Below, in pieces: positions 6,067-23,823 of a DNA stretch of 64,000 nt (position 1 is its first letter; each line of letters begins with the position of its first letter). This DNA is from Aliidongia dinghuensis (GTDB taxonomy: Bacteria > Pseudomonadota > Alphaproteobacteria > ATCC43930 > CGMCC-115725), in contig NZ_BMJQ01000002.1 in the NCBI RefSeq assembly GCF_014643535.1, positions 372,001 through 436,000 on the forward strand, in the 5' to 3' direction. Made by a program: the position numbers and the translations under genes. Under the pieces are notes generated by a model. The model saw only the letters and a list, made by a program, of their open reading frames with translations, ran no database searches and was not told the origin of the DNA.

Positions 6067-6129
6067 TGGTGGGACGAGCCGGTCTTGAGGCCGGCGTCGC
6101 TCCGTTGTGAGACCACCGAAGGAAAAACC

Positions 6130-6531: not shown

Positions 6532-6537
6532 CCCGTC

Positions 6538-7260
6538 ATGGCAATGGGGAGCGTCGGCTTCAGTTTCCTCGCGGGCGTGCTGTCGACGCTCTCGCCCTGT
6601 GTCCTGCCGCTGCTGCCGATCGTGCTCGGCGGCGCGGTGGCGGCTCATCGGTTCGGGATGGTCGCGCTCACCGCGGGGCTCGTCTTGTCCTTTACCGGCA
6701 TCGGGCTGTTCGTGGCGACGGTCGGCTTTTCGATCGGGCTTGACGGCGCCGTCTTCCGCGATGCATCGGCGGTCCTGCTGGCCGGCCTTGGCATCGTTCT
6801 CCTGAGCGGCAGCCTGCAGCAGCGCTTCGCTTTAGCGACCGCGGGCCTCGGCAATGAAGCCAACGGCCTGATGGCGCGCGTGGCGCCGTCCGGCCTCGGC
6901 GGCCAGCTCGCGATCGGCGTGATCCTGGGCGCCGTGTGGAGCCCCTGCGTCGGCCCGACGCTCGGCGCTGCGTCCGTGCTCGCCGCCCAAGGCCGGGACC
7001 TGGGCTCGGTCGCGCTCGTGATGATGGCGTTCGGCCTGGGTACCGCCGTCCCGCTCGTTATCGTGGGCATGCTGTCGCGCGAGGCGCTCACCCGCTGGCG
7101 CGGCCGGATGATGAGCGGTGGCGCTGTCGGTAAATATCTGCTGGGCGGCGGTGCCCTGGCCGTCGCGGTCCTGATCCTGACCGGGGCCGACCGGGCCGTC
7201 GAAGCCTTCCTCGTCACGGCCTCGCCCGCCTGGCTGACCGATCTCACGACCCGGTTCTAG
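6538..7260 (+). CDS. ccdA: CcdA/DsbD-type transmembrane electron transporter
   Basis: A 240-residue, six-helix inner-membrane protein. The family cysteines are visible as STLSPCVLPLLPIVLGG near the N-terminus and VWSPCVGPTLGAAS in the middle. Together they shuttle electrons from cytoplasmic thioredoxin to periplasmic partners. The gene begins 6 bp after the thioredoxin-fold gene and is followed 9 bp later by the GDCCVxC protein, forming one operon. Function in cytochrome c maturation is possible, but the stress-sigma context argues for thiol or metal homeostasis. Confidence 0.88.
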   Translation: MAMGSVGFSFLAGVLSTLSPCVLPLLPIVLGGAVAAHRFGMVALTAGLVLSFTGIGLFVATVGFSIGLDGAVFRDASAVLLAGLGIVLLSGSLQQRFALATAGLGNEANGLMARVAPSGLGGQLAIGVILGAVWSPCVGPTLGAASVLAAQGRDLGSVALVMMAFGLGTAVPLVIVGMLSREALTRWRGRMMSGGAVGKYLLGGGALAVAVLILTGADRAVEAFLVTASPAWLTDLTTRF

Positions 7261-7269
7261 GTCTTCGCC

Positions 7270-7479
7270 ATGATCACCGATTCCACGATCACCTGCCCGC
7301 TCTGCGCGACCCGGAAGAGCGAGACCATGCCGACCGACGCCTGCCTATTCTTCTACGAATGCACGGGATGCGGCGCGCTGCTCCGCCCGAAGCCGGGCGA
7401 TTGCTGCGTCTTCTGCTCCTATGGATCCGTGCCCTGTCCGCCCGTGCAGGCGGCGGGCGGCAAGAAGGGGTGTTGCTGA
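7270..7479 (+). CDS. Small GDCCVxC-domain cysteine-rich protein
   Basis: A 69-residue protein with ten cysteines in paired motifs: CPLC, CTGCGALL, the diagnostic GDCCVFC, PCPP and a terminal GCC. GDCCVxC proteins are small putative metal-binding proteins often found next to thioredoxin, CcdA or mer genes. As last gene of the SigF-linked operon it is probably a soft-metal or thiol buffer (inference). The N-terminal two CxxC pairs look like a zinc ribbon. Confidence 0.85.
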   Translation: MITDSTITCPLCATRKSETMPTDACLFFYECTGCGALLRPKPGDCCVFCSYGSVPCPPVQAAGGKKGCC

Positions 7480-7492
7480 TCCATCCCGGCGC

Positions 7493-8416
7493 TCACTCGG
7501 CCGCGGCGGTGATCTCGGCCAGGGCGGTCCCGTCGCCCCTGAGCCGCTCGGCGTCGCGGGCTGGCGGCGCACCGAACATCCGCGCATACTCCCGGCTGAA
7601 CTGCGAGGCGCTCTCGTAGCCGACGGCATAGCCCGCGCGCGCCGCGTCGTAGTTGGCGACGACCAGCTTGCGCGCCTGCTGCAGGCGCAGGCTCTTCTGG
7701 TATTGCAGCGGGCTCATCGCCGTCGCTGCCTTGAAATGGCGATGCAGCGAGGCGGCACTCATGCCGGCGAGGGCCGCCAGCGCATCGATGCGCAACGGCT
7801 GGTCGTAATGTGCCCGGATCCAGGCAATGGCGTTGCGAACTCGGGACAGGCGGCTGTCGGTGCGGGCGAGCTGGCGCAGCACACCGCCCTGCGGCCCCTG
7901 CAGCAGGCGGTAAAGGATCTCGCGCTCGACGAGCGGCGCCAGCACAGCAATGTCTTCGGGCGCGTCGAGCAGGCGCAGAAGGCGCAGCCAGGCATCGAGC
8001 AGCGCCGGCGTCACCGGGCTGACGCCGAAGCCGGCGGCTGTGGGCTCGATGCGTGCGGGGGCCTTGGTGCCGGCCGGAATCTCGGGCAGCAATGCCGCGA
8101 GCGCTTCCCGGTCCAGCGCCAGGGTGACGGCGATATAGGGGTGCTCGGCGCTCGCCTCGAGCACCCGACCTGATACCGGCACCTCCACCGAGGCGATGAA
8201 GCAGCTGGCGGGATCGTAGCGAAAGACGCTGTCGCCGATCGTCACTTCCTTGGCGCCCTGCAGGACCAGGCACAGCATCGGTTCGTAGAGGCCGGGCAGC
8301 GTCGGTGTGGTCTGCCATCCCGTATGGATCGTCACGCGGGCGATCGCCGTCTCGGTACGGCGGCCGCGGGCATGACGCGCCGTCAGGGCGCGCAGTTGGT
8401 CCAGTTGCTCGTGCAT
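7493..8416 (-). CDS. AraC-family transcriptional regulator
   Basis: A 307-residue protein with an N-terminal cupin-like AraC_N domain (LPGLYEPMLCLVLQGAKEVT, then ASCFIASVEVPVSG). Its C-terminal double helix-turn-helix is LAALAGMSAASLHRHFKAAT followed by GYESASQFSREYARMFGAPP. The start at 8416 (MHEQLDQLRAL) is preferred; the upstream extension to 8533 lacks a domain and would run into the promoter region. It is divergent from an SDR gene across about 200 bp, the standard arrangement in which such regulators activate the neighbouring oxidoreductase. Confidence 0.87.
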   Translation of the reverse strand: MHEQLDQLRALTARHARGRRTETAIARVTIHTGWQTTPTLPGLYEPMLCLVLQGAKEVTIGDSVFRYDPASCFIASVEVPVSGRVLEASAEHPYIAVTLALDREALAALLPEIPAGTKAPARIEPTAAGFGVSPVTPALLDAWLRLLRLLDAPEDIAVLAPLVEREILYRLLQGPQGGVLRQLARTDSRLSRVRNAIAWIRAHYDQPLRIDALAALAGMSAASLHRHFKAATAMSPLQYQKSLRLQQARKLVVANYDAARAGYAVGYESASQFSREYARMFGAPPARDAERLRGDGTALAEITAAAE

Positions 8417-8617
8417 GACCGCATCATCGGCGCCCGCCTGGCGCCAGGCAAGGCGGCAGCAGGCTCCGGCGATCGCACTTGAGAGGATCAGGCAAGAGAT
8501 CGAGGCGATCGGGCGCGCCGTCGGCGGTGCCAACCGCCAGTTTCTTCGACGACCAGGGCCTGCTGCCGTGGCGACATGGCCAGGCCCTGCAACGTCGTTT
8601 CAAGGAGGAAGACAACC

Positions 8618-9577
8618 ATGACCAGGATTTTCGGCGCCGAGTCCACGACCGACGAGGTGCTCGCGGGCATCGATCTGTCGGGCAAGCGCGTGTTCGTCAC
8701 CGGCGTGTCGGCCGGTCTCGGCGTCGAGACGGCGCGTGCGCTCGCGGCGCGCGGCGCGCATGTGGTTGGCGCTGCGCGCGATCTTGCGAAGGCGCGGGCC
8801 GCGACCGCGGCAATTCATGGGCAGGCCACCGGCAGCGGCGGTTTGGATCTGGTGGCGCTCGACCTCGCGTCGCTTGCGAGCGTGCGCGCCTGTGCCGACG
8901 CGCTCGTCGCGGCCGGCGAGCCGTTCGATTTGGTGATCGCCAACGCCGGCGTGATGGCCTGCCCGCAGGGTGTCACGGCCGACGGCTTCGAGACCCAGTT
9001 CGGCACCAACCATCTCGGCCATTTCGCGCTGATCAACCGGATTGCATCCCTGCTGAAGCCGGGCGGCCGGCTGGTCAACCTGTCGTCGGCGGGCCATCGC
9101 TTCTCCGACGTCGATCTGGACGATCTCGGCTTCGCGCGCACGCCCTATACGCCGTTCGGCGCCTATGGCCGGTCAAAGACGGCCAATATCCTGTTCGCCG
9201 TGGAATTCGACCGGCGCCACCGGGGCCGGGGTATCCGCGCCACTGCCGTGCATCCGGGCGCGATCCAGACGGAACTCGGCCGATACATGACGGACGAGGT
9301 GAGAGAGCAGCTGATCGCGTCGATCAACGCGAACCGGCCGGCCGGGACGCCGGAGTTCAGCTACAAGACCGTGCCGCAGGGCGCTGCGACCTCGGTCTGG
9401 GCCGGCGTCGTGGCGTCGCCGGACGAGGTCGGCGGCCGCTATTGCGAGGACTGTCACGTGGCGGAATTGGTCGAGGGCGAGGGCATCCGCGCCGGGGTCC
9501 GGCCCTACGCCCTCGATCCCGAGCGCGCGAAGACGCTCTGGGCGAAGAGCGAGGCGCTGGTCGGCGAGCGCTTCTGA
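8618..9577 (+). CDS. Short-chain dehydrogenase/reductase
   Basis: A 319-residue Rossmann protein. The nucleotide motif is TGVSAGLG (residues 28-35), followed by DLASLASVRACADAL, the NAGVMA motif, LVNLSSAGHR with catalytic Ser, and YGRSK with the Tyr/Lys pair. Length and the long C-terminal lobe resemble the retinol-dehydrogenase/WWOX-like subgroup rather than FabG. AAGGAGG precedes the ATG at 8618, which fixes the start. The substrate is unknown. It is the likely target of the divergent AraC regulator. Confidence 0.87.
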   Translation: MTRIFGAESTTDEVLAGIDLSGKRVFVTGVSAGLGVETARALAARGAHVVGAARDLAKARAATAAIHGQATGSGGLDLVALDLASLASVRACADALVAAGEPFDLVIANAGVMACPQGVTADGFETQFGTNHLGHFALINRIASLLKPGGRLVNLSSAGHRFSDVDLDDLGFARTPYTPFGAYGRSKTANILFAVEFDRRHRGRGIRATAVHPGAIQTELGRYMTDEVREQLIASINANRPAGTPEFSYKTVPQGAATSVWAGVVASPDEVGGRYCEDCHVAELVEGEGIRAGVRPYALDPERAKTLWAKSEALVGERF

Positions 9578-9583
9578 GGGGGC

Positions 9584-10594
9584 CTAGAAGGACAGCTGCA
9601 CCTTGCAGCACTCGGTCGGCCGGTGCTCGAACACGTCGAACGCCGTCGCGAAATCCTGGAAGCCGTAGCGGTGCGTGATCAGCCGCTCCGGCTTCAGCCG
9701 GCCGGTAGCGAACCAGCTCAGCACCTTCTCGAACTTCCGGCTGTTGAGCCGGGAGGCGTGGATCGACAGTTCCTTGCTGGTGATCCGCTGCTGCACGACC
9801 GTCGAGGGATTGGCGGAAAAGCCCATGATGCCGATGCGGGCGGCGGGCGAGGCGATCTCGATCGCTTCGCTGAGGATCGCCGGATGGCAGGCGGCATCGA
9901 TGATCAGCGTCGGCCTGAGGCCGGCTGCCGCGAGCGCCGCCGGCAGCGGGGCGCGCGCCGTGTTGACGACGCGGTCGGCGCCGTTCGCCCGGGCGGCGTC
10001 GAGCCGCTCGTCGATCCGGTCGCACACAGTCAGATCCTTGACGCCATAGACGCCCTTCAGCACCTGGACGACGGTGAGCCCGATCGGGCCGGCGCCATAG
10101 ACGAGCGCCACGTCTTGGGCCAAGACGCGCGTTAGGTCGGTGATGTTGGCCGCGACCGAGAAGGGCTCGACCAGCGGCGCCTGCTCGTCCGACACGCCGT
10201 CCGGCACCGGCAGCGCATTGGCGGCCGGCACGCAGCAATATTCCGCGAAGCCGCCGTCGCGATGAACGCCCAGCACCTGCAGTTCCGTGCAGACGTTGGG
10301 GCGCCCGACCGAGCAGGGATAGCAGTGGCCACAGGCGATGACCGGGTCGACCACGACGCGGGTGCCGAGCGTCGCCGTGACGCCTGTCCCGACGGCGTCG
10401 ATCCGCCCGAAGAACTCGTGGCCGATGATGCGCGGATATTGGGCGAACGGGTTGCTGCCGTGGAGGATATGGACGTCCGAACCGCAGATGCCCGCGCGCT
10501 CGACGCGAACGCGCACCTCGCCAGGCCCGGGCTCCGGCGTCGCCCGCTCCAGTACCGTCAACTGTCCCGGCCGCTCCACGACGAGGCTCTTCAT
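9584..10594 (-). CDS. rspB: Zn-dependent alcohol dehydrogenase, RspB / L-galactonate dehydrogenase type
   Basis: A 336-residue MDR enzyme. Catalytic zinc ligands are AGICGSD (C37) and GHEFFG (H59, E60). Structural zinc cysteines are C88, C91, C94 and C102 in ACGHCYPCSVGRPNVC. The coenzyme motif is VYGAGPIGL. Extended similarity by memory to E. coli RspB (NPFA.YPR.IGHEFFG, VQVLKGVY, THRYGFQDFA, ending CCKVQLSF) is strong. The start at 10594 has GGGAGAG upstream. RspB-like enzymes oxidise hexonates, and the adjacent TRAP transporter and GntR regulator support a role in sugar-acid catabolism. Confidence 0.82.
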   Translation of the reverse strand: MKSLVVERPGQLTVLERATPEPGPGEVRVRVERAGICGSDVHILHGSNPFAQYPRIIGHEFFGRIDAVGTGVTATLGTRVVVDPVIACGHCYPCSVGRPNVCTELQVLGVHRDGGFAEYCCVPAANALPVPDGVSDEQAPLVEPFSVAANITDLTRVLAQDVALVYGAGPIGLTVVQVLKGVYGVKDLTVCDRIDERLDAARANGADRVVNTARAPLPAALAAAGLRPTLIIDAACHPAILSEAIEIASPAARIGIMGFSANPSTVVQQRITSKELSIHASRLNSRKFEKVLSWFATGRLKPERLITHRYGFQDFATAFDVFEHRPTECCKVQLSF

Positions 10595-11021
10595 CCCACT
10601 CTCCCGATCGCCAATCCCGGCAGCTGTCCGCAAGGCTGGCAGCCGCCGGCCCGATATAAAGGCTATCGATAAACGAACTGGGATACAAGCGGCGATGCAA
10701 AGTACGGCGCCGTCGCTGCCATAAACTGAAGATGGCGACGAAATTTCGGCGTATTTCCTTATAGATTGGTCGCTGCGACGCTCGATTGCGGCTTCATGCC
10801 GAATCGTAGCGCTTGCGCGCTGGTATCCTAGAGCGTAGGGTCGTCCTGCCAATGAAATCCCAAGCCGCCTTCGAGAGCGGCTGTTCGATGTGGAGGAACG
10901 CCGACTTGCTCCTGCCCCGATCCTGCCTTGCCGCACGGATCGCCCGGCATATCGGGCGGCCCCCCTCCCGTCGATCTCATCCCGACGGTTTCATGCGGCG
11001 CTCAAGGGAGGGAGAGAAGCA
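10595..11021. other. 427-bp divergent intergenic region, no gene seen
   Basis: The stretch separates rspB (minus) from dctP (plus). Open frames here are short and arginine-rich with no ribosome-binding site. It must hold the promoters of both transcription units. GGATAC near 10680 and its inverse GTATCC near 10824 could be half sites for the GntR regulator, but this is weak. Confidence 0.5.
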
Positions 11022-14040: not shown

Positions 14041-14742
14041 ATGAACGATACCGATCGACAGAGCGGCCGACTGGCAGACCAGGTCTACGAGCGCCTGCTG
14101 GGCGATATCGTGCGCGGCACGCTGCCGCCGGGCACGCCGATGGCGGAGCTCGACCTGTGCCAGCGGCTGGGCGTCAGCCGCACGCCGGTGCGCGAGGCGC
14201 TCATCAAGCTTGCCGACGCCGACCTCGTCCGCATCCTGCCGCAGCGCGGCAGCTTCGTGGCGCCGATCTCGTTCGAGGCGTTCCGCAACGCTCAGTTCAT
14301 CCGCGAGCATCTCGAATGCGCGCTCGTCGGCGAGGCGGTTCGCTATATCGACGCGACGTCACTGCGCGAGCTGACCGAGATCATCGAGCGCCAGGACGAG
14401 GCCGCCGCGGCCGGCCAGAGCGAGGCGTTCTACGAGCATGACGAGGCGTTCCACGACGCGATTGCGCGGCTGAGCCGCTATGTCGGCGTATGGACGGTGA
14501 TCCGCCAGACCAAGATCCATTTCGATCGCGTGCGCCATCTGACGCTGGTCCTGGACGCCGACCACATCCCGCTCCTGATCGAGCAGCATCGCGAGATCCT
14601 GGACGGGCTCGCCAACTGCAACGAGGCGCAGGCCGTCGCCGCCATGCGCCGCCATCTGCGCGAGGTGTTCCGCCGTGCGAACGCGGTGATCGCCCAGCAG
14701 GAAAGTCTGACCAAGCTCAGGGCGCAGCGCGCGGCCGGCTGA
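14041..14742 (+). CDS. GntR-family (FCD) transcriptional regulator
   Basis: A 233-residue protein with an N-terminal GntR winged helix (LADQVYERLLGDIVRGTLPP, LGVSRTPVREALIKL, then ILPQRGSFVAP). Its C-terminal helical FCD ligand domain has metal-site residues (FYEHDEAFHDAIA, HREILDGLANCN, AAMRRHLREVF). The start at 14041 (MNDTDRQSG) is taken because the upstream extension is unlike the family. It follows dctQM in the same direction and probably controls the rspB-TRAP sugar-acid module. Its 3' end overlaps the convergent lasso B2 gene by 26 bp. Confidence 0.88.
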   Translation: MNDTDRQSGRLADQVYERLLGDIVRGTLPPGTPMAELDLCQRLGVSRTPVREALIKLADADLVRILPQRGSFVAPISFEAFRNAQFIREHLECALVGEAVRYIDATSLRELTEIIERQDEAAAAGQSEAFYEHDEAFHDAIARLSRYVGVWTVIRQTKIHFDRVRHLTLVLDADHIPLLIEQHREILDGLANCNEAQAVAAMRRHLREVFRRANAVIAQQESLTKLRAQRAAG

Positions 14743-15190
14743 GCGGAAAGCGTGCCAGCACCGCAAACCGGCCGGCCACCTCGCCGCCGATCACGTCGAG
14801 GGCGCCGGCCCTGACCCAGACATGGGCGGCCAGCCCCTTCGCCGCCCCTGCTTGGGTCAAGGTCGGCGCCGTGCCGTAATAGAGCACGGATGGGACGCCC
14901 CTGCGCCGCAGCATCCAGTGCGCGGCGACGCCCTGCTGGAAGCAGACCGCCCGCCATGGCACGCGCCTGGCGCCGGCGACCACGGCCCAGCGGACGCGGG
15001 TGATCAGCGCCTCCGGCATGTCGGCCAACGGCGCCGCCGCGCTGTCGCCGCGGCCGAGCAGCCGGACCAGCCAGCGAAACGGCAGCGCCGCGATCGCGAC
15101 CCGGGCGATCGCCAGCAGGAGGACCGCCTCGCACAGGAGCGCGCGATCGGGCCAGGCGAGCCGCCGCCACTTGCGCAGTGCCGCCGTCAT
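14717..15190 (-). CDS. Lasso-peptide biosynthesis B2 protein (leader peptidase)
   Basis: A 157-residue protein of the transglutaminase-like family that removes the leader peptide in lasso-peptide maturation. The papain-like triad is visible as C83 (PWRAVCFQQG), H123 (LAAHVWVRAG) and D132 (GALDVIGGE). WMLRRRGVPSVLYYG is typical of the family. The start at 15190 is chosen over 15202 because AGGA lies about 10 bp upstream of it. It is 19 bp after the DUF6916 gene on the same strand. It is the first recognisable gene of the RiPP locus that extends to 23823. Confidence 0.9.
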   Translation of the reverse strand: MTAALRKWRRLAWPDRALLCEAVLLLAIARVAIAALPFRWLVRLLGRGDSAAAPLADMPEALITRVRWAVVAGARRVPWRAVCFQQGVAAHWMLRRRGVPSVLYYGTAPTLTQAGAAKGLAAHVWVRAGALDVIGGEVAGRFAVLARFPLSRPRAAP

Positions 15191-15209
15191 GGCGCTGCCC
15201 ATCCTGTGG

Positions 15210-15497
15210 TCAACTGAAGACCGCCTGATAGAGGAAGCCGTCGCCATGCCGGCCGATCGGCACGAGGAAGATCGCCATCTCGCCCAGGCTGTCATGCATG
15301 AGCCGGTGCGTTCTCTGGGCAAGGCAGGCGGGACCGGGACCCGCGAACTGCAGCTGGAACGGGCTTGCGCCGTCTCGGCCGGTCGGTCCGGGCAGAGCCC
15401 CCGCCTCGATGAGGGCGATCGCCATGCTGGCGTTCTCGCCGATGTCGACCGAGAAGGTCTCGCCCAGGTGGGGGACGAATGTCTCCAGCGCCCACAT
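15210..15497 (-). CDS. DUF6916-like small protein
   Basis: A 95-residue protein with an excellent ribosome site (GGAGGACGC-ATG). The fold looks all-beta: FVPHLGETFSVDIG, SPFQLQFAGPG and EMAIFLVPIGRHGDGFLYQA. It ends in the AVF tail I associate with DUF6916. Proteins of this family recur near tail-collar (MdpB-like) and lasso-type genes, as here, but their function is unknown. It is cotranscribed with the B2 protease and divergent from the PqqD-kinase-sulfotransferase operon. Confidence 0.7.
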   Translation of the reverse strand: MWALETFVPHLGETFSVDIGENASMAIALIEAGALPGPTGRDGASPFQLQFAGPGPACLAQRTHRLMHDSLGEMAIFLVPIGRHGDGFLYQAVFS

Positions 15498-15604
15498 GCG
15501 TCCTCCAGCGACGGTCGCCTACCGCATTTCGCTCAAATTGAACTTAAACTCGAGTGCAACCCCTGGCAATATCGGGGCGCTTCGCTCCGTTCGAGGGGGG
15601 ATCC

Positions 15605-15895
15605 ATGACCGTCGAATTGTCTGACACGTCAAGGGTTGCGCGCGGCCAAGGACATTTGAGCGCCGACATGGGCACGCAGACCGTTCTGATGAGTATCGAT
15701 CACGGGAAATATATCGGCCTCGACGCGGTCGGTACCGCGATCTGGCAGCGGCTGGCCGAGCCGGTCAGCGTGCGGGATCTCTGCGCGCAGCTGATGAGCG
15801 CCTTCACCGCCGACGCGGCGGAACTGCGGCGCGACGTGCTGGCCTTCCTCACGCGTCTTCACGCCTACGGGCTCGTCGATATCGATCCGGCCTGA
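15605..15895 (+). CDS. PqqD-like RiPP recognition element (lasso B1)
   Basis: A 96-residue PqqD-family protein (ADMGTQTVLMSIDHGKYIGL, GTAIWQRLAEPVSVRDLCAQ, RDVLAFLTRLHAYGLVDI). As the RRE (B1) it binds the precursor leader and presents it to the B2 protease and cyclase. The start at 15605 has GAGGGGGGATCC upstream. It lies 1 bp before the kinase gene, forming an operon with the kinase and sulfotransferase. The matching leader motif in the precursors here is WQAPVIE. Confidence 0.9.
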   Translation: MTVELSDTSRVARGQGHLSADMGTQTVLMSIDHGKYIGLDAVGTAIWQRLAEPVSVRDLCAQLMSAFTADAAELRRDVLAFLTRLHAYGLVDIDPA

Positions 15896-15896
15896 C

Positions 15897-16820
15897 ATGG
15901 CCATGCCGGCCGGGCCGGACGGCTATCTTTGCGGCTGGCGCGTCCGCTCGGAGCTGCCGCTGCCGGAACTCTCGCCCTGGCAGGGGATCGACCGGCCACC
16001 GGACATCACCGTTCGTTTCGGGCCGGTTCCGGAGCAGCTGCCGGACGTCGTCGGCGAGACTCCGTTCATGCAGATCGGGCGCGACGGCAGCGGTCTCCTG
16101 CGGATCGACGCGGTCGGCGGCTATCTCGTGCGTCGGGACGAGGTGGTGATCGAGCCCCGGGCGGGCGCCACGGACGCCGAACTCCGGCTGTTTCTGCTCG
16201 GGTCGGCGCTGGGCATTCTCTGCCACCGGCGCGGGCTCTTGCCGCTGCACGCCGCGAGCATCGGCTGCGATGGCGCGGCGGTCGCCTTCGCCGGCCCGTC
16301 GGGCGCCGGCAAATCGACGCTGGCGGCCGCCCTGGCCCAACGGGGCTACCCGCTGCTGTCGGACGACGTCTGTGTGATCGATGCCCATGCCGCCGACGGT
16401 CCCGTGGTGCTGCCGGCATTTCCCCGGCTGAAGCTCTGGCACGATTCGCTGACGGCGCTCGATCTCGCGGCCGAAGGGCTCGAGCGCAACCGTCGGTTCC
16501 AGGAGAAATACCATTATCTGGCGCGGCAGGGGGATGTCGCAGGGCCTGTGCCGCTGGCGGCGATCTATCTGCTGGAGACGGTATCCGCGGGCGAGGACTG
16601 GTCCGTCCAGCGGATCGAGAAGCCGTTCGAGGCCGTGCGCGCGTTGCACGACCAGGTCTTCCGGCGATCCGTCGCGGTGGCGCTCGGCTATACGAACGCC
16701 CTGTTCCATGCCGAAACGCAGATCGCCGCGCGCGTCCCGGTCCTGCGTTGGCGCCGGCGCAAGGACTTCGCGCGGCTCAACGAGGACGTGGCGCGACTGG
16801 CCCAATCCTGGATCGCATGA
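15897..16820 (+). CDS. HPr-kinase-like RiPP-tailoring kinase
   Basis: A 307-residue protein with an HprK/serine-kinase C-terminal domain. LLPLHAASI precedes a Walker A GPSGAGKST (133-141). YPLLSDDVCVID carries the paired aspartates, and FPRLKLW follows. Proteins of this layout in lasso clusters (the paeninodin PadK type) phosphorylate the C-terminal serine of the precursor peptide. Both precursors here end in Ser-Ser, which fits. The stop overlaps the sulfotransferase ATG (ATGA, 16817-16820). Confidence 0.85.
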   Translation: MAMPAGPDGYLCGWRVRSELPLPELSPWQGIDRPPDITVRFGPVPEQLPDVVGETPFMQIGRDGSGLLRIDAVGGYLVRRDEVVIEPRAGATDAELRLFLLGSALGILCHRRGLLPLHAASIGCDGAAVAFAGPSGAGKSTLAAALAQRGYPLLSDDVCVIDAHAADGPVVLPAFPRLKLWHDSLTALDLAAEGLERNRRFQEKYHYLARQGDVAGPVPLAAIYLLETVSAGEDWSVQRIEKPFEAVRALHDQVFRRSVAVALGYTNALFHAETQIAARVPVLRWRRRKDFARLNEDVARLAQSWIA

Positions 16821-17653
16821 GCGGCCTGATACTCCTCGCGTCATATCCCAAGTCGGGCAATACCTGGATGCGGCTCGTGCTCGAGACGCTGCGCCGGGAG
16901 GGGCAGCGGCCGGCGCTCGACGCGCTCGGCATCGAGAGTGCCGCGGCCAGGCTCAGGTACGACCAGGCGCTCGACATCGAGACTTCGGACCTGAGCCCGC
17001 TCGAAATCGCCCGCGCGCGGCCGTGGGTTTCGGCGCAGTGCCGGGCCGCAGCCGATGGCCGGATCCTGAAGATGCACGATGCCAATCTGACGCCCCCCGG
17101 CGCAGCGGGCCCGCCGTTCGACCCAGGCGCCGTCGATCGCGTGCTCTACATCGTACGTGACCCGCGCGATGTGGCGCTGTCGTTCGCGCGCCATTTCGGG
17201 TTTTCGCTCGACCAGGCGGTCGCAAGCCTTGCGGATACAGCTTTCTGGATGGGGCGGTCGGAAACCGGCCTCAACCCGAACCTAGAGCAATTCCTGTCGA
17301 GCTGGAGCCGGCATGTCGAAAGCTGGCTCGACGCGCCTGGCCTGACGATCCTGTGCCTGCGTTATGAGGACCTGCTGCAGGCGCCGCTCGAAAGCTTCGC
17401 CGCGGCTGCGCGCTTCTTCGGTCTGCCGGCCGATGCCGATTTGCTCGGCCGGGCCGTCGATGCTTGCGCGTTCGCGGCACTCGCCGCGGAGGAGCGCGCG
17501 CTGGGGTTCCGTGAAAGGCATTGGGATGCGGCCGCACCATTCTTCTATCGCGGCAGGGCGGGTGCCTGGCGCGAGGGCCTGCCGGCGGCGCTCGTCGAGG
17601 CGATCGGGCGCGACCACGGGCCGGTCATGCGCCGGCTCGGCTACGAGGCGTGA
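16817..17653 (+). CDS. PAPS-dependent sulfotransferase in the RiPP locus
   Basis: A 278-residue protein. YPKSGNTWMRL (residues 10-20) is the 5'-phosphosulfate loop and YIVRDPRDVALSFARHF the 3'-phosphate motif. LCLRYEDLLQAP and a C-terminal FFYRGRAGAWREGL (RxGxxGxW-like) complete the fold. The gene is translationally coupled to the kinase, so the likely substrate is the same peptide (a Ser, Thr or its phosphate), though this is inference. It converges with the cyclase gene, leaving only 7 bp between stops. Confidence 0.85.
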   Translation: MSGLILLASYPKSGNTWMRLVLETLRREGQRPALDALGIESAAARLRYDQALDIETSDLSPLEIARARPWVSAQCRAAADGRILKMHDANLTPPGAAGPPFDPGAVDRVLYIVRDPRDVALSFARHFGFSLDQAVASLADTAFWMGRSETGLNPNLEQFLSSWSRHVESWLDAPGLTILCLRYEDLLQAPLESFAAAARFFGLPADADLLGRAVDACAFAALAAEERALGFRERHWDAAAPFFYRGRAGAWREGLPAALVEAIGRDHGPVMRRLGYEA

Positions 17654-17660
17654 CGCGCGC

Positions 17661-19553
17661 TCACATGTTCCCGCCCTCGAGGCGACGGATGAAGCGCCCG
17701 GCCGACAGCGTGAAGGGCAGGGCGAACTGATAGAGCACATAATTGTCGGCGCGAATGTCGTGGGCAGCCGGCCAATCGTCGATCAGGCGGCGCAGGCGCG
17801 GCAGATCAAGGCATTGCTGCGCGAGCGGGCTCTGCTCCAGCCGGGCGACCTCTGCGGCGAGTTCCTTGCGCGCCGCGGTGGCGACGCCGTGCCAGTCGGC
17901 CATCTGCAACCCTCGGCGCCGCTCCTGCAGGATTTCCGGCGGCAGCAGCGGCGCCATGGCCCGGCGGATGAGCGCGCGCGGCTCGCCCTGGTGCAGGAAC
18001 TGCTCCTCCGGTATGGCGAGGCAGAATTCGACAACGCGCCGGTCGCTGGTCGGGTCCAGCATGTCCACGCCGAATTGCCGCCGGAGCGCCGCCGCCATGT
18101 GCCCCCGATGATCGCTGCGATCGAACACCGCGAGGCGGAGCCGGCGGCCGTCCCAGTCGACCAGATTGCCGAGCGATCCGCCATGCCGTACGGCCCGCGC
18201 CTCGAGGCCGGATCGTTTGAGAAACGCCGGATTGATCAGCGAATAGTCGGGCAGCGCCAGTTCCGGCCGGCCGAACCGCTGCCGTACCGCGCGGGCCGCG
18301 GGAAGCGGCAGCAGCGGCAGCAGGGTCATGGCCAAGATCGACGACCATCTGTGACCGCTGCGCGCCCGCATCTGCGCCATGCTCTGCGCCAGGCGCCGCC
18401 AGTGCATCCTGCGTGCCAGTGCCGGCAGCAGGGTGAGCCCGTCGTAGCTCGCGGTCATGTTGCCCAGGTTGCCGGTTAGCATCACCTTGCAGCCCCGGTG
18501 CGCCGCGGTGCGCGCCATGTGATCGACGCCCGGCACGCCGAACACGCTCAGCACCGGCCAGTCCTGCACGGCCTCGCGCCGGTCGAGCGCGTCGAGGAAC
18601 GGTTCGGGGAAATTGGGGATCAGCACATGCTCGATGTTGGCGTGTCCGCGCGCCACGGCGGCGGCATGGGACGACTCGTCCGCGAAGCGGCCGGGGCCGG
18701 GGTCGCTGACCTCGCCTGTGGGCGCCATCGTGAGCGCGATCAGCGGGCGGTCCTGCTCGGCGAGCGCACGCGCGGCCAAGGCTGTGACGCTGCTGCTGTC
18801 GAGCCCGCCGCTCAGCTGCGTGGCGACGGGGCCCTGTGTTCCGATGCGACAGCGGACCGCCTGGTCGAGCAGGTCATGCAGCGCCTCCGCATAATCCTCG
18901 TCGCGCTTCAGCCGGAGCGTCGGCAGGTCCTCCGGCCGCCAGTAGCGGTCGATCGTGACACGGTTGTCCCGCCAGACGACCCTGTGGCCCGGCGGCACGC
19001 GGCAGATGTCCCGGTAGAAGCTGCGCGAAGGTTCCCGCGGCAGGCGCGCGAGCCACGCCGCCATCTGGTCCTCGTCGAGCTGCTTCGGCACGCGCGGATG
19101 GCACCAGAGGCCGCGCTGCTCGCTCGCGAACAGGATCTCGTCCGGCCCCAGCCAATAGAACATCGGCCGCAACGCGCCCGGATCTGAGGCGAGCAGCAAG
19201 GTCCGTTCGCGCGCGTTCCAGACGGCGCAGGAAAAATCGCCGAGGACGCGGTCTGAGAACGCGGCCCCCGATTTCCGGTAGAGGTGGAGGAGGAGTTCGG
19301 CGTCCGACAGACCGGTGCTTGGGCCGAGTCCTAATTCGCCGAGCAGTTCGGCTCGATTGTCGATCCGCCCGTCGACGACGGCGGTGCCGTCCGTGTCGGC
19401 GAACAGGCCGCCGTCGTCGCATGCCGCCAGGCCCGCGCTCGCGCCGGTCCAGCGCCGCGTGGCGGAGCGCGGCCCCCGGCACAGCGCCGACAGCGAGCGC
19501 TCAAGCTCGGCCCGCACATCCGCCGCGGCTGGGATGCCTCCGCAGATCGACAT
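17661..19553 (-). CDS. Asparagine-synthetase-like lasso cyclase (C protein)
   Basis: A 630-residue protein. An N-terminal glutaminase-like domain (to about 200) is followed by an ATP-pyrophosphatase domain with the PP-loop SGGLDSSS (248-255). In lasso clusters this enzyme adenylates a Glu/Asp side chain and closes the macrolactam. The N-terminus reads MSICGG, so no cysteine directly follows the initiator. The glutaminase site is therefore presumably dead, as in other lasso cyclases. It lies 73 bp downstream of precursor gene B. Its first 40 codons have a degenerate duplicate at 19792-19920. An unusual feature is the missing canonical glutaminase Cys2. Confidence 0.88.
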   Translation of the reverse strand: MSICGGIPAAADVRAELERSLSALCRGPRSATRRWTGASAGLAACDDGGLFADTDGTAVVDGRIDNRAELLGELGLGPSTGLSDAELLLHLYRKSGAAFSDRVLGDFSCAVWNARERTLLLASDPGALRPMFYWLGPDEILFASEQRGLWCHPRVPKQLDEDQMAAWLARLPREPSRSFYRDICRVPPGHRVVWRDNRVTIDRYWRPEDLPTLRLKRDEDYAEALHDLLDQAVRCRIGTQGPVATQLSGGLDSSSVTALAARALAEQDRPLIALTMAPTGEVSDPGPGRFADESSHAAAVARGHANIEHVLIPNFPEPFLDALDRREAVQDWPVLSVFGVPGVDHMARTAAHRGCKVMLTGNLGNMTASYDGLTLLPALARRMHWRRLAQSMAQMRARSGHRWSSILAMTLLPLLPLPAARAVRQRFGRPELALPDYSLINPAFLKRSGLEARAVRHGGSLGNLVDWDGRRLRLAVFDRSDHRGHMAAALRRQFGVDMLDPTSDRRVVEFCLAIPEEQFLHQGEPRALIRRAMAPLLPPEILQERRRGLQMADWHGVATAARKELAAEVARLEQSPLAQQCLDLPRLRRLIDDWPAAHDIRADNYVLYQFALPFTLSAGRFIRRLEGGNM

Positions 19554-19626
19554 GGGCTACCGGGCGCGTCTTTGCGGCGCGTGGCGGTCCCGGGCCTCGC
19601 GGGCGCTACCCACGAATTGCCGTCGC

Positions 19627-19764
19627 TTACGAGCTTGAGGTGGGTTCTGTGATCGGCGTAGGACCCGCCTCGGCCTCCGTCACGTCGAACACCTCGATGA
19701 CCGGTGCCTGCCAGATCGGCTTCGCCTCGGCATTTTCGGTCGCCGCCGCCGCCTCCATACCCAT
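19627..19764 (-). CDS. RiPP precursor peptide B (lasso-type)
   Basis: A 45-residue peptide beginning MGMEAAAATE. The leader core KPIWQAPVIE matches the [YW]xxPx[LI] motif bound by lasso B1 proteins. The C-terminal part is FDV-TEAEA then GPTPITEPTSSS. AGGGGG lies 5' of the ATG. It is 73 bp upstream of the cyclase and paralogous to precursor A. If the core starts at the Gly, a Glu sits at position 7 as possible ring acceptor, and the terminal serines would be the kinase targets. The core boundary is not established. Confidence 0.8.
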   Translation of the reverse strand: MGMEAAAATENAEAKPIWQAPVIEVFDVTEAEAGPTPITEPTSSS

Positions 19765-19791
19765 CGTTGATCCCCCTCTGGATATGCCATC

Positions 19792-19920
19792 CTATGATTG
19801 ATGCCTGGGCCGATCCAGCGTCGCCGAGCAGTACGGGAGCCCACGGCACAGGGCCTCGAAGGAGCACTCAAGCTCGGCCCGGACGTCCTCTGAGGCTACG
19901 ACGCCTCTGCAGACCGATAT
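19792..19920 (-). pseudogene. Relic of the cyclase N-terminus
   Basis: Read on the minus strand from 19920, the frame gives ISVCRGVVASEDVRAELE then CSFEALCRG. This aligns with MSICGGIPAAADVRAELE then RSLSALCRG of the intact cyclase. The initiator ATG has become ATA (19918-19920) and the frame stops at 19792 after about 42 codons. It is the remnant left by the precursor duplication and is probably not translated. Confidence 0.85.
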
Positions 19921-19990
19921 GGCTTGCCAGGCCTGTCCGGGCGCCGCATCGAGATTTCGGGCTTTGCGGCTACTCACGACTTCCTGCCGC

Positions 19991-20128
19991 TTACGAGCTG
20001 ACGCCGCCTTCTGTGATCGGCGTAGCCCCGGACTCGGCCTCCGACACGTCGAACAGCTCGATGACCGGTGCCTGCCAAATGGGCTTCACGTCGCCATTTT
20101 CGATCGCTGGTGCCGTCTCCATACCCAT
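19991..20128 (-). CDS. RiPP precursor peptide A (lasso-type)
   Basis: A 45-residue peptide beginning MGMETAPAIE. It shares KPIWQAPVIE, FDV and EAE with precursor B and ends GATPITEGGVSS. AAAGGGAG lies about 9 bp before the ATG at 20128; a longer in-frame start at 20188 lacks a ribosome site. The two peptides are identical through TPITE apart from a few leader changes and differ in the last five residues (GGVSS against PTSSS). The same Gly-to-Glu spacing of seven is kept. Confidence 0.8.
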   Translation of the reverse strand: MGMETAPAIENGDVKPIWQAPVIELFDVSEAESGATPITEGGVSS

Positions 20129-20321
20129 CGCTCGGTCTCCCTTTGGATAGGTCGCTGCACGATTGTAGTTTATGATGTGCACTTCCATAGCGTGCGGGAA
20201 GGGTTGCGAGATTGCAAGAAGGCGCGTGAGCGAGAAATTTCAAATTCTCCACTTATAGTTGCTGATGAAATCTGATATAACCCAGTGACGGCGTACCTCT
20301 GGCTACATGAGCGAGGGAGCG
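20129..20321. promoter_or_regulatory. AT-richer divergent promoter region of the RiPP and tail-collar genes
   Basis: This 193-bp stretch separates precursor A (minus) from the first tail-collar gene (plus) and is visibly poorer in GC than its flanks. TATAAC at 20276-20281 is a candidate -10 toward the collar genes. TACAAT, read on the minus strand near 20161-20166, is a candidate -10 toward the precursors. Neither has a convincing -35, so the positions are tentative. Confidence 0.45.
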
Positions 20322-20864
20322 ATGTCGGACTATTTCATCGGTGAAATCAGGGCGTTCAGCTTCGCCTTCGCGCCATCCGGCTGGGCGCTGGCCAATGGCG
20401 CATCCTTGTCGGTCAATCAGAATCAGGCGCTTTATTCGCTAATCGGAAACGCCTACGGCGGCAACAACGTCGCCTTCAATCTGCCCGACTTGCGCGGCCG
20501 AACGCCGATCCATTCCGGGGTGAGCCGCACGGGCAGCGGGACGACTTATCAGGTGGGCAATCAGGGCGGATCGGAGACGGTCGCGCTGGCGGCAGACCAG
20601 ATCCCGCTGCATAACCATGCGCTGGAGGCGTCGACGACCCCAGGCATCGGCGGCAACCCGTCCGGTCACTATTTCGGCGCGGTCGCGGCGGACCCGGACG
20701 GCAACACGCCAAACCTCTATGGCGCGTTGGGCGCGTCGCCGGTGCCGCTGTCCTCGACGATGCTGGCAACGGTGGGCGGCAGTGCGGGCCATAACAATAT
20801 GCAGCCCTTCGCCGTGGTGAATTACTGCATCGCGCTGACGGGCCTCTATCCGATGCGCCCGTAG
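20322..20864 (+). CDS. Phage tail-collar-domain protein 1 (MdpB-like)
   Basis: A 180-residue protein with the microcystin-dependent-protein/tail-collar signature. It begins MSDYFIGEIRAFSFAFAPSG and contains LYSLIGNAYGG, FNLPDLRGRTPIHSG, IPLHNHALE and a C-terminal NNMQPFAVVNYCIALTGLYP. The start at 20322 (after GAGGGAG) is preferred to 20307. It is the first of three paralogues in a row. No other phage genes are present. In bacteria such trios are standalone genes of unknown role, and proximity to the RiPP enzymes is the notable context. Confidence 0.87.
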   Translation: MSDYFIGEIRAFSFAFAPSGWALANGASLSVNQNQALYSLIGNAYGGNNVAFNLPDLRGRTPIHSGVSRTGSGTTYQVGNQGGSETVALAADQIPLHNHALEASTTPGIGGNPSGHYFGAVAADPDGNTPNLYGALGASPVPLSSTMLATVGGSAGHNNMQPFAVVNYCIALTGLYPMRP

Positions 20865-20895
20865 GCACCCGCGTCAAGGCAGATCGGAGGATCCG

Positions 20896-21447
20896 ATGGA
20901 AGCCTATCTCGGCGAAATTCGCATGTTCGCCGGTCCCTACGCCCCGCAAGGCTGGGCGCTGTGCGACGGCTCGTCCCTATCCGTCTCAGGCAACGAGGCG
21001 CTCTACGCGCTCATTGGAACGACCTGGGGCGGCGATACGACCAACTTCAAGCTGCCCGACCTGCGCGGCCGCCTGCCGATCGGCCAGGGCCAGGGGACGA
21101 GTCTGACCGCGCGCACGATCGGCCAAACCGGCGGCGGGACGCAGGCTGCGCTCGATGCGTCGACGCTGCCGGCTCATACTCACGCCGTCATGGCCAGCAC
21201 CGCCGCCGCCACGTCGACCGAGCCCGGGGCGGCACTGGGCCTCGCCACCACAGCTTATCCGGGCAGCAGTTCGAGCCTGCAGCCGCTCGCCTATCTGCCG
21301 GCGAACACGACCGGCGCGACGAAATTTGTCCTGGGGGAGCAGACGATATCCACCATGGGCGGGGGCGGCGCCCATGACAATGTGATGCCGTCGCTCTCGA
21401 TCAACTACATCATCTGCACGCAGGGCATTTATCCCACGCAGCACTAG
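20896..21447 (+). CDS. Phage tail-collar-domain protein 2 (MdpB-like)
   Basis: A 183-residue paralogue of its neighbours. Visible parts are YLGEIRMFAGPYAPQGWALC, LYALIGTTWGGD, FKLPDLRGRLPIGQGQG, LPAHTHAVMAS and VMPSLSINYIICTQGIYP. A GGAGG lies just upstream of the ATG. The spacing of 31 bp after gene 1 indicates an operon. The central region (about residues 95-150) diverges from the other two copies while both ends are conserved, as expected for a trimeric fibre-tip fold with a variable knob. Confidence 0.87.
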   Translation: MEAYLGEIRMFAGPYAPQGWALCDGSSLSVSGNEALYALIGTTWGGDTTNFKLPDLRGRLPIGQGQGTSLTARTIGQTGGGTQAALDASTLPAHTHAVMASTAAATSTEPGAALGLATTAYPGSSSSLQPLAYLPANTTGATKFVLGEQTISTMGGGGAHDNVMPSLSINYIICTQGIYPTQH

Positions 21448-21461
21448 GAGGAGGCGTCGTC

Positions 21462-22010
21462 ATGGACGGCTTCATCGGCGAGATCCGCGTGTTCCCCTGG
21501 AGCTGGGCGCCGCAGGGCTGGCTACCGTGCAACGGGCAGGCCCTGCCCATCGCGAATTACCAGGCGCTCTATGCGGTGATAGGCCCAACCTTCGGCGGCG
21601 ACACCCAGCAGTTTCATCTGCCGGATCTCCGAGGTGCTGCCGCCACGGGCAGCGCCGCCGCGAACGGCAACGGCGTCTTCGCCGGCAGCGAGACAGAGAC
21701 CTTGCTTCTTTCGCAGATGCCGGCGCATAACCACGAGGCGACCATCATCTACGAAGCCGGCAACGTGGGCGCGACCTCGGGGCCCGTATCGGGCGGCAGT
21801 CTGCCGACCCGGGTCTATTCCGGCACCAAGAACGCGGCTGGCACACCGCTCATCTCGCCGTCTTTCACACCGACCAACCCGACCACCACCCTGAATTCCG
21901 CCTCCATCGCCCCGGTCGGCAAGGGACTGCCGCACGAGAACCGTCAGCCCTATCTCGCGATGCAGTTCTGCATCTGTGCCCAAGACGGCGTGTTCCCGAT
22001 CCGGCCGTGA
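21462..22010 (+). CDS. Phage tail-collar-domain protein 3 (MdpB-like)
   Basis: A 182-residue third paralogue: FIGEIRVFPWSWAPQGWLPC, LYAVIGPTFGGD, FHLPDLRGAAATGS, MPAHNHEATII and RQPYLAMQFCICAQDGVFPI. AGGAGG precedes the ATG. Its TGA overlaps the GTG start of the GNAT gene (GTGA, 22007-22010), so the acetyltransferase is translated with the collar proteins. This physically ties the collar operon to the tailoring genes. Confidence 0.87.
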   Translation: MDGFIGEIRVFPWSWAPQGWLPCNGQALPIANYQALYAVIGPTFGGDTQQFHLPDLRGAAATGSAAANGNGVFAGSETETLLLSQMPAHNHEATIIYEAGNVGATSGPVSGGSLPTRVYSGTKNAAGTPLISPSFTPTNPTTTLNSASIAPVGKGLPHENRQPYLAMQFCICAQDGVFPIRP

Positions 22011-22558
22011 CGGCAGCGGCTGACGCGGCGCTGCCCCCCGCGCTGCCGCTCTCGGCGGCGCCGCGGCAGCTGGGCCTCAACCTCAGGCCGCGGACCGACC
22101 ACGACCATCCCTTCCTGGCCGAGCTCTACCTCGCGGTCCGGTGGCCGGAGTTCGCCCAGGCTGGCTGGCCCGACGCGGTGCTGCGTCGTTTTCTGCTCGA
22201 TCAGTTCGCGCTTCAGACCCGGCACTACGACGATGTCTATCGCGATGCCGAATTCACCATCGTCGAGCGCGGCGGTGCCGCGATCGGCCGCCTCTATCTG
22301 TTCCGCGGCGCCACGGATCACCGCATTGTCGACATCTCGCTCAAGCCCGATGCATGCGGGCAGGGGATCGGCACGGCGCTGCTGACCACCGTGCTTGACG
22401 AGGCGTTCGGTCAGGGCAAGACCGTCAGCATCCATGTCGAGCAGTTCAATCCGGCCCTGCGGCTCTATCGCCGCCTGGGCTTTCGCGAAATCGGCGAGCG
22501 CGGGCCCTATCTGCTGATGGAGGTCCGGTCAGACCAGCGGCTGTCGCCGCAATCCTAA
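22007..22558 (+). CDS. GNAT-family N-acetyltransferase
   Basis: A 183-residue GCN5-type acetyltransferase with a GTG start overlapping the preceding stop. The acetyl-CoA loop is DACGQGIGTALLTTVLDEAF, followed by VEQFNPALRLYRRLGFREIG, the classic motif B. The substrate is not predictable. It is coupled to the tail-collar genes and ends tail-to-tail with the nucleotidyltransferase (4-bp overlap), so acetylation of either the RiPP product or the collar proteins is conceivable (inference). Confidence 0.87.
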   Translation: MTAAADAALPPALPLSAAPRQLGLNLRPRTDHDHPFLAELYLAVRWPEFAQAGWPDAVLRRFLLDQFALQTRHYDDVYRDAEFTIVERGGAAIGRLYLFRGATDHRIVDISLKPDACGQGIGTALLTTVLDEAFGQGKTVSIHVEQFNPALRLYRRLGFREIGERGPYLLMEVRSDQRLSPQS

Positions 22559-23823
22559 CCGCGGCCGCTCCCGGAAGGGGCAAGCCGCCACCGGCGGACG
22601 GCCGATCGTCCCCCGTGCGCGATGCGGCGCCGTAGCCAAAGCGGCAGGCGAAGCAGCGGGTAGAGTCCGGTGGCCCATGGCGGCAGCGGCAGTCCTTCCA
22701 TGTCGTCAAGGCTGAAGAGGATTTGGCGCAGCTGGCCGAGCCAGTAGCGCCAACCGTCGCCGAGCAGGAAGCCGGAGAGAAAGACGAGCGAGGTCGCGAA
22801 CCGGCGGTCGAAGAGCTCGGCCGCACCCGCGCCTGCCAGGCAGTGCAGGGCAATAGCCTCGAGCCAGCGGGCGCGCCGATCCACGCCGATCTTGGTTGCG
22901 AGCGCCGCGGGCAGCGGCAGGTCGAACAAGCGCCGGCACAGCAACAGCGCCTGATCGACGCTCCGGCCCGCTCCCATGGACCGCGCCGCGCGGTACAGCC
23001 GCTCGATGCCGGCTGCATCCTCGCGCGCCAGCAATGTCCCGATGTCGGCCAGCCATTTGAGGCGCGACCAGCCGTGGGAGGCGCCATGGAGACAGAGATA
23101 GGCGAACAGCGCCGGCCCGCCGAGCGTTTCCAGGCTCTGCTGGTTCGACAGGTCGATGCGGCGAGTCCCGTCGAAGCTGCAGTCCGGCGCCGCCGGATTG
23201 TCGACGAGGCGCCAATGCACGTCCACCTGCTGCCTGGTTTGCCGATGAACGAAGGCGCATTCCTTGGCGTGGCGCAGATAGCGTCGGACCAGGTCCGGCC
23301 GCATGCCGGCCGGCGGCACCACTCGGACGTATCCGGCCTCGGCCAGGATCTCGAACGACGCATCGAGCTCATCGGGAGCGACCAGCAGATCGATGTCCTT
23401 GGCGTGGCGGAGGCTCTGCGTTCCGTACACAAGCTGAGCCAGGCTCGTACCCTTGACGAAGCGGACGGGGATGCCGGCGGCCTGGAAACGGGCCTGCAGC
23501 CGCAATGCCTCCGCCCCGAGGGCGAGGCTGGCGCGGGCCAGCGCGCTTGCCAGCGCGCCCAGCGCCTCGCGGACCGTGGGCGGCACGGCGGCCTGCGCCC
23601 GGAAGAGGCCGGCATGCAGCAGGCCCTCGACGCGATGGCGCTTGGCAAGCGCCAGGGCCTGATCCCAGTCGACGCGGGCTGCCGCTTCTCGGATGGCACG
23701 GCAGTGCCGCTCGGACGGCGGCCAGACCGAACAGTCGGCGAGCAGCCGGAATTCGGGCGGGGCAGCGAAGAGGCGGGATGATTTTCGGGCCGGCAAAGAC
23801 TCGCTCCCGATGATGGTCGGCAC
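22555..23823 (-). CDS. Lasso-associated nucleotidyltransferase (NTP_transf_5)
   Basis: A 422-residue protein of the family common in lasso and related RiPP clusters. The nucleotidyltransferase core is VRFVKGTSLAQLVYGTQSLR then AKDIDLLVAP, with D143 and D145 as metal ligands. A third acidic strand lies in QQVDVHWRL. Helical segments fill the C-terminal half, which ends in basic residues. The start is GTG at 23823; no in-frame ATG with a ribosome site was found near it. It may nucleotidylate the peptide or extend a phosphate placed by the kinase. It closes the RiPP locus. Confidence 0.83.
   Translation of the reverse strand: MPTIIGSESLPARKSSRLFAAPPEFRLLADCSVWPPSERHCRAIREAAARVDWDQALALAKRHRVEGLLHAGLFRAQAAVPPTVREALGALASALARASLALGAEALRLQARFQAAGIPVRFVKGTSLAQLVYGTQSLRHAKDIDLLVAPDELDASFEILAEAGYVRVVPPAGMRPDLVRRYLRHAKECAFVHRQTRQQVDVHWRLVDNPAAPDCSFDGTRRIDLSNQQSLETLGGPALFAYLCLHGASHGWSRLKWLADIGTLLAREDAAGIERLYRAARSMGAGRSVDQALLLCRRLFDLPLPAALATKIGVDRRARWLEAIALHCLAGAGAAELFDRRFATSLVFLSGFLLGDGWRYWLGQLRQILFSLDDMEGLPLPPWATGLYPLLRLPLWLRRRIAHGGRSAVRRWRLAPSGSGRG

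Follow-up and report, generated by a model that had tools for sequence, protein, structure and literature searches.

What do two neighbouring ORFs of 45 codons encode on the minus strand of a 64,000-nucleotide stretch of Aliidongia dinghuensis DNA (the window)? An earlier note had placed them at 19627-19764 and 19991-20128 and read them as precursor peptide genes. We found both ORFs intact and on the minus strand, as placed:

19627..19764, minus strand: precursor A1, MGMEAAAATENAEAKPIWQAPVIEVFDVTEAEAGPTPITEPTSSS, 45 aa, of which residues 33-45 (AGPTPITEPTSSS) are the predicted core and the leader runs to Glu32
19991..20128, minus strand: precursor A2, MGMETAPAIENGDVKPIWQAPVIELFDVSEAESGATPITEGGVSS, 45 aa, of which residues 33-45 (SGATPITEGGVSS) are the predicted core and the leader runs to Glu32

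The ribosome sites claimed for them were recovered as Shine-Dalgarno-like sequences 5' of the two ORFs (AGAGGGGG-7nt-ATG and AAGGGAG-8nt-ATG); an upstream ATG at 20188 would give A2 an alternative start and 65 aa. No consensus promoter (sigma-70 consensus only) or terminator was found at 19500-20400. As described before, the two peptides have KPIWQAPVIE, FDV and TPITE in common. To call their leaders nearly identical was too strong, identity being ~73% over residues 1-30 and 71% overall (32 of 45 residues). The last five residues, given as PTSSS and GGVSS, do form different tails, but the final Ser-Ser is common to both. A C-terminal serine is the documented site of paeninodin-type kinases (PMC9266682), which agrees with the importance attached to the Ser-Ser end.

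The lasso leader motif YxxPxL is represented in A1 and A2 by W18-Q-A-P21-V-I23, in which Trp replaces Tyr and Ile replaces Leu; related precursors as a rule have the Trp as well. The NCBIfam model NF033524 (paeninodin family lasso peptide, cut-off 27 bits) scored 15.9 bits with A1 and did not match A2. It had been expected that such ORFs would be missed by gene calling. Homologues of 48, 54 and 58 aa were nevertheless called in all three annotated plasmid clusters (Azospirillum and Tistrella plasmids), as unnamed hypothetical proteins, so that precursors of this kind are called but not recognised.

The surrounding biosynthetic genes

From 14717 to 23823, the gene row reads B2, DUF6916, B1, kinase, sulfotransferase, C, A1, a cyclase relic, A2, three tail-collar genes, GNAT and NTP_transf_5. 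The putative biosynthetic genes are the following:

14717..15190, minus strand: B2, lasso leader peptidase (Transglut_core3); ORF readable up to 15322
15605..15895, plus strand: B1, PqqD-like leader-binding protein (RRE); PF05402, 2.8e-19
15897..16820, plus strand: K, HPr-kinase-like lasso kinase; His118, Lys139, Asp156, Asp157 (HKDD)
16817..17653, plus strand: sulfotransferase; PAPS-type motif SYPKSGNTW; PF00685, 2.3e-19
17661..19553, minus strand: C, asparagine-synthetase-like lasso macrolactam cyclase (GATase_7 and Asn_synthase); SGGLDSSS motif
22555..23823, minus strand: N, NTP_transf_5 nucleotidyltransferase; PF14907, 4.3e-49

C is AsnB-like (PF00733, 4e-31) and scored 258 bits with NF033535, below the curated 525 bits of that exception model. 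The transglutaminase-like B2 reached 75.6 bits with NF033537, above the cut-off of 33. B1 is of the PqqD/RRE type by PF05402 (2.8e-19), with 69 bits for NF033536 (below the cut-off of 80) and 60 bits against the lasso PqqD chaperone PDB 9x90_B. Its Tyr53 (position 1 being the GTG at 15554) lines up with the tyrosine of TfuB1/FusE, which we take to be Tyr33. This tyrosine has been reported at the pocket for the leader residue at -2 (PMC10368454).

The kinase is an HPr-kinase homologue whose His-Lys-Asp-Asp residues are conserved in 14 of 16 distinct homologues, the remaining two having HKED. In ThcoK, a kinase of the paeninodin type, these four residues are essential (PMC9266682). The sulfotransferase gene adjoins the kinase gene in many related loci. 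Going by its annotation, N belongs to the gene type of bsfN/psmN, which are found in phosphorylated lasso clusters. Among the cluster genes we saw none for an ABC exporter.

With a lasso cyclase, a peptidase, a PqqD-like B1 and an HPr-kinase-like kinase nearby, the reading of A1 and A2 as precursor peptides was largely right; it was incomplete in not mentioning the absence of Thr(-2), the ~13-residue cores, the cyclase relic and the adjacent tail-collar genes. We conclude from the sequence that A1 and A2 are very probably lasso-type RiPP precursors. We also consider it highly likely that A2-A1-C, all on the minus strand, contains paralogous precursor genes of a lasso-type RiPP modified at its C-terminal serine.

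Phosphorylation of a terminal serine is known chemistry (paeninodin, pseudomycoidin). HPr-kinase homologues phosphorylate the C-terminal Ser on the linear precursor; polyphosphorylation, phospho-glycosylation through a nucleotidyltransferase and the presence of sulfotransferase genes in clusters of this type have also been described (PMC9266682, PMC8498205). The systems of paeninodin, ThcoA and SyanA (kinases PadeK, ThcoK and SyanK) resemble the present one in their split B1/B2, AsnB-like C, HKDD kinase and C-terminal Ser. SyanK comes from a proteobacterium, Sphingobium yanoikuyae, and genes for sulfotransferases and nucleotidyltransferases likewise occur in Firmicutes clusters of the paeninodin group (PMC8498205, PMC9266682). 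Unlike the paeninodin group, A1 and A2 have Ala for Thr at -2, Trp for Tyr in YxxPxL, a predicted core of 13 residues and scores below the NF033524 cut-off; no ABC transporter was seen here, and tail-collar genes are neighbours. In pseudomycoidin biosynthesis, the kinase PsmK and the nucleotidyltransferase PsmN, which places hexoses on phospho-Ser, are likewise encoded in one cluster (PMC9266682), whereas the putative nucleotidyltransferase gene of the window is separated from A2 by 2.4 kb that hold the tail-collar genes. BsfA of Bradymonas sediminis, from a cluster with kinase and nucleotidyltransferase genes, departs from Thr(-2) as A1 and A2 do, by a natural Ile(-2); the kinase of its cluster acts on Ser3, and the precursor ends in Asp, whereas A1 and A2 have Ala(-2) and a conserved terminal Ser (PMC10368454).

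A precursor family beside related cyclases

To find more family members, an HMM search with the two leaders had been suggested. An HMM from the two precursors did not deliver: there was no close copy in 39 family genomes, and in 385 class genomes only weak matches appeared apart from the window's own copies. Since the sequence of such short precursors does not suffice to find them, we searched via the cyclase and a motif rule. Among 43 order and 385 class genomes, the cyclase search yielded some 20 related loci (L numbers below) with 26-39% identity; a scan of genome contigs with the cyclase alone gave a distant Erythrobacter locus only. The rule asked for a start codon, W..P.hydrophobic and, 22-24 residues past the Trp, an Asp/Glu; it took no account of the C-terminus.

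Within 2.5 kb of C or B1 genes (232 kb), 28 ORFs matched the rule, a count that takes in the window's two ORFs and at least one spurious-looking match (L056 9861-9962). Elsewhere (493 kb) there were five, two of which look like true precursors. The expectation near C/B1 was 2.4 (p ~1e-20). A1 and A2 end in SS, and 24 of the 28 matches end in Ser. The earlier note had held that an absence of homologous short ORFs beside related cyclases would speak against its reading; the 28 candidates, 24 of them ending in Ser, contradict such an absence. Related precursors that do not end in Ser occur in L031, L034, L056 and L003, and L028, L032, L033 and L035 yielded no clear precursor. In all, some three dozen unnamed precursors are added to the understudied phosphorylated-lasso branch in Alphaproteobacteria.

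The closest cluster (L084) was found in a phylum search; its C, kinase and sulfotransferase are 47%, 51% and 49% identical to those of the window. Its genes lie in the mirrored arrangement also seen in the window, with tail-collar genes divergent from precursor-C and, convergent to these, sulfotransferase-kinase-B1 followed by DUF6916. The single precursor of L084 (...WERPTMSVMPASSAQ followed by DGDGERND-GDFSS) matches A1 and A2 in spacing, in Ala(-2), in a tail of five residues and in the SS end.

Three different precursors surround one related cyclase in L044 (6893-7600), and likewise in L038 (5373-12602); the core of L044b, AKGTTITEGATTRTSS, has the ITE ring end in common with TPITE of the window. 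L054 and L056, on Azospirillum plasmids, are related clusters with 2OG-Fe(II) oxygenase and cupin/JmjC genes; a sulfotransferase was not found in either cluster, and L054 has two kinase-like genes. L040 (1-18001) holds at least three cyclase-like genes together with kinase, sulfotransferase and B1 genes within 18 kb and may be a lasso island.

Predicted core boundary, ring and tail

The Thr that typically occupies leader position -2 is absent from A1 and A2; Ala31 stands at the aligned position. Thr(-2) is typical of lasso leaders, not universal, a natural Ile(-2) having been validated (PMC10368454). Where relatives have a clear Thr(-2) at W+13 (13 residues past the Trp), their acceptor lies at W+22 or W+23, and where Thr is at W+14, it nearly always lies at W+23 or W+24; relatives with a clear Thr(-2) have rings of 8 or 9. 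In A1 and A2, the acceptor Glu40 is at W+22 and Ala31 at W+13. Moreover, the near-identical pair L040/L042 shows a Thr/Ala difference exactly at W+13. From this spacing and from the L040/L042 pair, we infer that the leader ends at Glu32 and that the core is A/S33-G-x-T-P-I-T-E40-xxxSS, with 13 residues and a ring of 8. The cores at this best boundary would be AGPTPITE-PTSSS and SGATPITE-GGVSS, 8-rings with five-residue tails that contain no bulky plugs. Lasso cores carry the acceptor Asp/Glu at position 7-9, and Glu40 is at position 8 (or 7) in both precursors.

Position 7 would apply if Gly34 were core residue 1; this alternative implies a 7-ring and Glu32 as the -2 residue. A known small-ring system offers a precedent for small rings and for this alternative 7-ring reading (Gly34 to Glu40), and it is not known to have a kinase or sulfotransferase. 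The numbering of Duan (Tyr at -17) would start the core at residue 35 and put Glu at position 6. We rejected it because the core begins 15 or 16 residues past the Trp in relatives with a clear Thr(-2).

Ala at W+13 also occurs in L029, L030, L031, L034, L042, L054 and L084, and most of the closest relatives have Ala for Thr(-2), as A1 and A2 do. Six of the seven Ala(-2) rows fall on the window's side of the cyclase tree; a single Ala(-2) clade is unsupported, at least four label changes being required. Loss of the B1 tyrosine as a partner of Ala(-2) was rejected as well, the Tyr being kept in the window, L030 and L054. According to PMC10368454, which cites Kretsch et al. 2023, Ala(-2) had already been predicted by others. 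The natural Ala(-2) set provides material for probing B1/B2 recognition.

The genes, their duplication, the selection pattern, the family, the conserved terminal Ser and the kinase residues can be read from the sequence. On top of these we propose a pathway in which the cleavage site, the order of steps, the phosphorylation, any threading and the substrates of the sulfotransferase and the nucleotidyltransferase are predictions. B1 would bind the leader via W18-x-x-P21-x-I23, and the last residue of the still linear precursor, Ser45, would be phosphorylated by the kinase. B2 would next remove the leader by a cut behind Glu32, with Ala31 at -2. Glu40, at core position 8, would be activated at its side chain by C and linked to the freed N-terminus (Ala33 or Ser33), so that eight residues form the ring and five the tail. 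Further decoration by the sulfotransferase and the nucleotidyltransferase is possible.

Whether this product would be threaded is less certain. According to reviews, lasso peptides have rings of 7-9 residues, and bulky plugs or disulfides hold them in place (PMC8498205). Since neither PTSSS nor GGVSS offers a bulky residue as a plug, a stable threaded lasso is doubtful. The enzymes may thus make an unthreaded macrolactam (a 'tadpole' or branched-cyclic peptide) with a terminal phosphate or larger group as its functional end. Besides the requirement of lasso folds for bulky plugs or disulfides (PMC8498205) and the composition of the tails (Pro, Thr, Ser, Gly and Val, none a plug), the five-residue tails of L038a-c, L043, L065 and L084 point in this direction. 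However, the full lasso enzyme set is present, the tails of some relatives that share the architecture are longer and contain aromatic residues, and a phosphate or glycan could itself be the plug. We therefore regard an unthreaded product as possible, though the less likely outcome. For the preferred lasso-type product, threading is uncertain unless the modified Ser, a candidate plug, takes that part, and the very short cores pose the question of whether a modified terminal serine can be a lasso plug.

A comparison of the DNA around the two genes revealed a tandem repeat (20149-19809 versus 19784-19443; 344 aligned bp, 76% identity, E 5e-67), with these parts:

19809..20149, minus strand: upstream repeat copy; Shine-Dalgarno-like site, A2, spacer and cyclase 5' relic
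19443..19784, minus strand: downstream repeat copy; Shine-Dalgarno-like site, A1, spacer and ~37 codons from the start of the intact cyclase
19809-19920, minus strand: cyclase 5' relic between A1 and A2; ~37 codons, start codon ATA instead of ATG

A 51-bp match of 100% in this comparison was discarded as a mere overlap of the two compared stretches. The second precursor gene stems from a tandem duplication that also copied the start of the cyclase gene. With the relic and spacer of the same repeat as an internal yardstick, and with small counts, codons 1-40 of A1 and A2 differ at 16 of 120 bases (13%) versus 47 of 182 (26%) in the non-coding/relic half (Fisher p=0.009). In the tail of five codons, 7 of 15 bases (47%) differ. 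Again with small counts, pN was 0.05 and pS 0.19 over codons 15-30 of the shared leader, and pN was 0.58 in the tail. As divergence is lowest in codons 1-40, higher in the relic and spacer and highest in the tail, leader and ring are constrained and the tail is free, the pattern expected of a product-diversifying precursor family. Leader and ring kept and tail diverged would mean one enzyme set and two products.

The start-less, dead cyclase fragment that follows A2 could also be taken as a sign that A1 is the sole working precursor and that A2, together with the relic, is a decaying duplicate. We think this unlikely: A2 is intact, has kept an SD-like site and all motif residues, and its GGVSS tail still ends in SS. 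The lower divergence of codons 1-40 relative to the relic (p=0.009) also argues against decay, and several precursors per cyclase are found in relatives (three each in L044 and L038).

The tail-collar neighbours

Divergent from A2 lies a set of genes of another kind, three of them phage-tail-like, which has a further member next to B2:

20307..20864, plus strand: tail-collar protein 1 (PF07484), divergent from A2
20896..21447, plus strand: tail-collar protein 2 (PF07484)
21462..22010, plus strand: tail-collar protein 3 (PF07484)
22007..22558, plus strand: GNAT acetyltransferase of the tail-collar module
15210..15497, minus strand: tail-collar-associated DUF6916 protein (PF21880, 7.9e-25)

A tail-collar triplet with GNAT, and in most cases DUF6916, lies beside lasso-type genes in at least 17 loci from many genera. 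In at least 14 of them it accompanies related clusters (window, L009, L030, L041, L045, L054, L056, L057, L061, L065, L072, L078, L080, L084), and in three Tistrella-genus genomes a B1 gene and a precursor (L064, L066, L067). Six of ~21 DUF6916 places in the class sample are within ~6 kb of a related cyclase (p ~7e-9, for random placement under a rough model). In a full-text literature search outside subscription journals, we found no paper linking lasso peptides with tail collars or tail fibers, or RiPPs with tail collars; the recurrence of lasso-type clusters beside three tandem tail-collar genes, GNAT and DUF6916 is, in searchable papers, unreported.

Many lasso clusters have no tail-collar module within the fetched stretch (L036-L040 and L042-L044 among them). 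Conversely, the module stands alone in many genomes (L058-L063, L073, L074, L079, L081, L083, L085 and others). It is thus an independent unit that lasso-type clusters often join. The genome of the window holds a second tail-collar triplet with two DUF6916 genes (G000 contig C9, L062 ~6100-10700), and no lasso genes were found beside that triplet.

On a bolder view, which we hold to be quite improbable, an alphaproteobacterial clade with Ala(-2) and cores of ~13 residues would produce some of the smallest lasso or lasso-like peptides, their plug-less tails locked by a phosphate, sulfate or sugar on the terminal Ser, and these peptides would work with the tail-collar trio, GNAT and DUF6916. More improbable still is a role of the peptides as tags or partners for the tail-collar proteins next door, in which a modified peptide would for instance be loaded onto a fibre instead of being a free natural product; the module does lie beside such clusters in at least 14 loci and beside B1 and a precursor in three more, but it is often alone, many lasso clusters lack it, and nothing points to a physical link. 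That A1 and A2 are chance ORFs has a negligible probability: G+C-rich DNA such as this contains many spurious ORFs on both strands, but the same pattern is strongly enriched beside related cyclases, the terminal Ser is conserved and the leader is constrained. For modified peptides of the lasso type, our preferred reading, the recurrence of tail-collar neighbours offers a testable clue to their cellular role.
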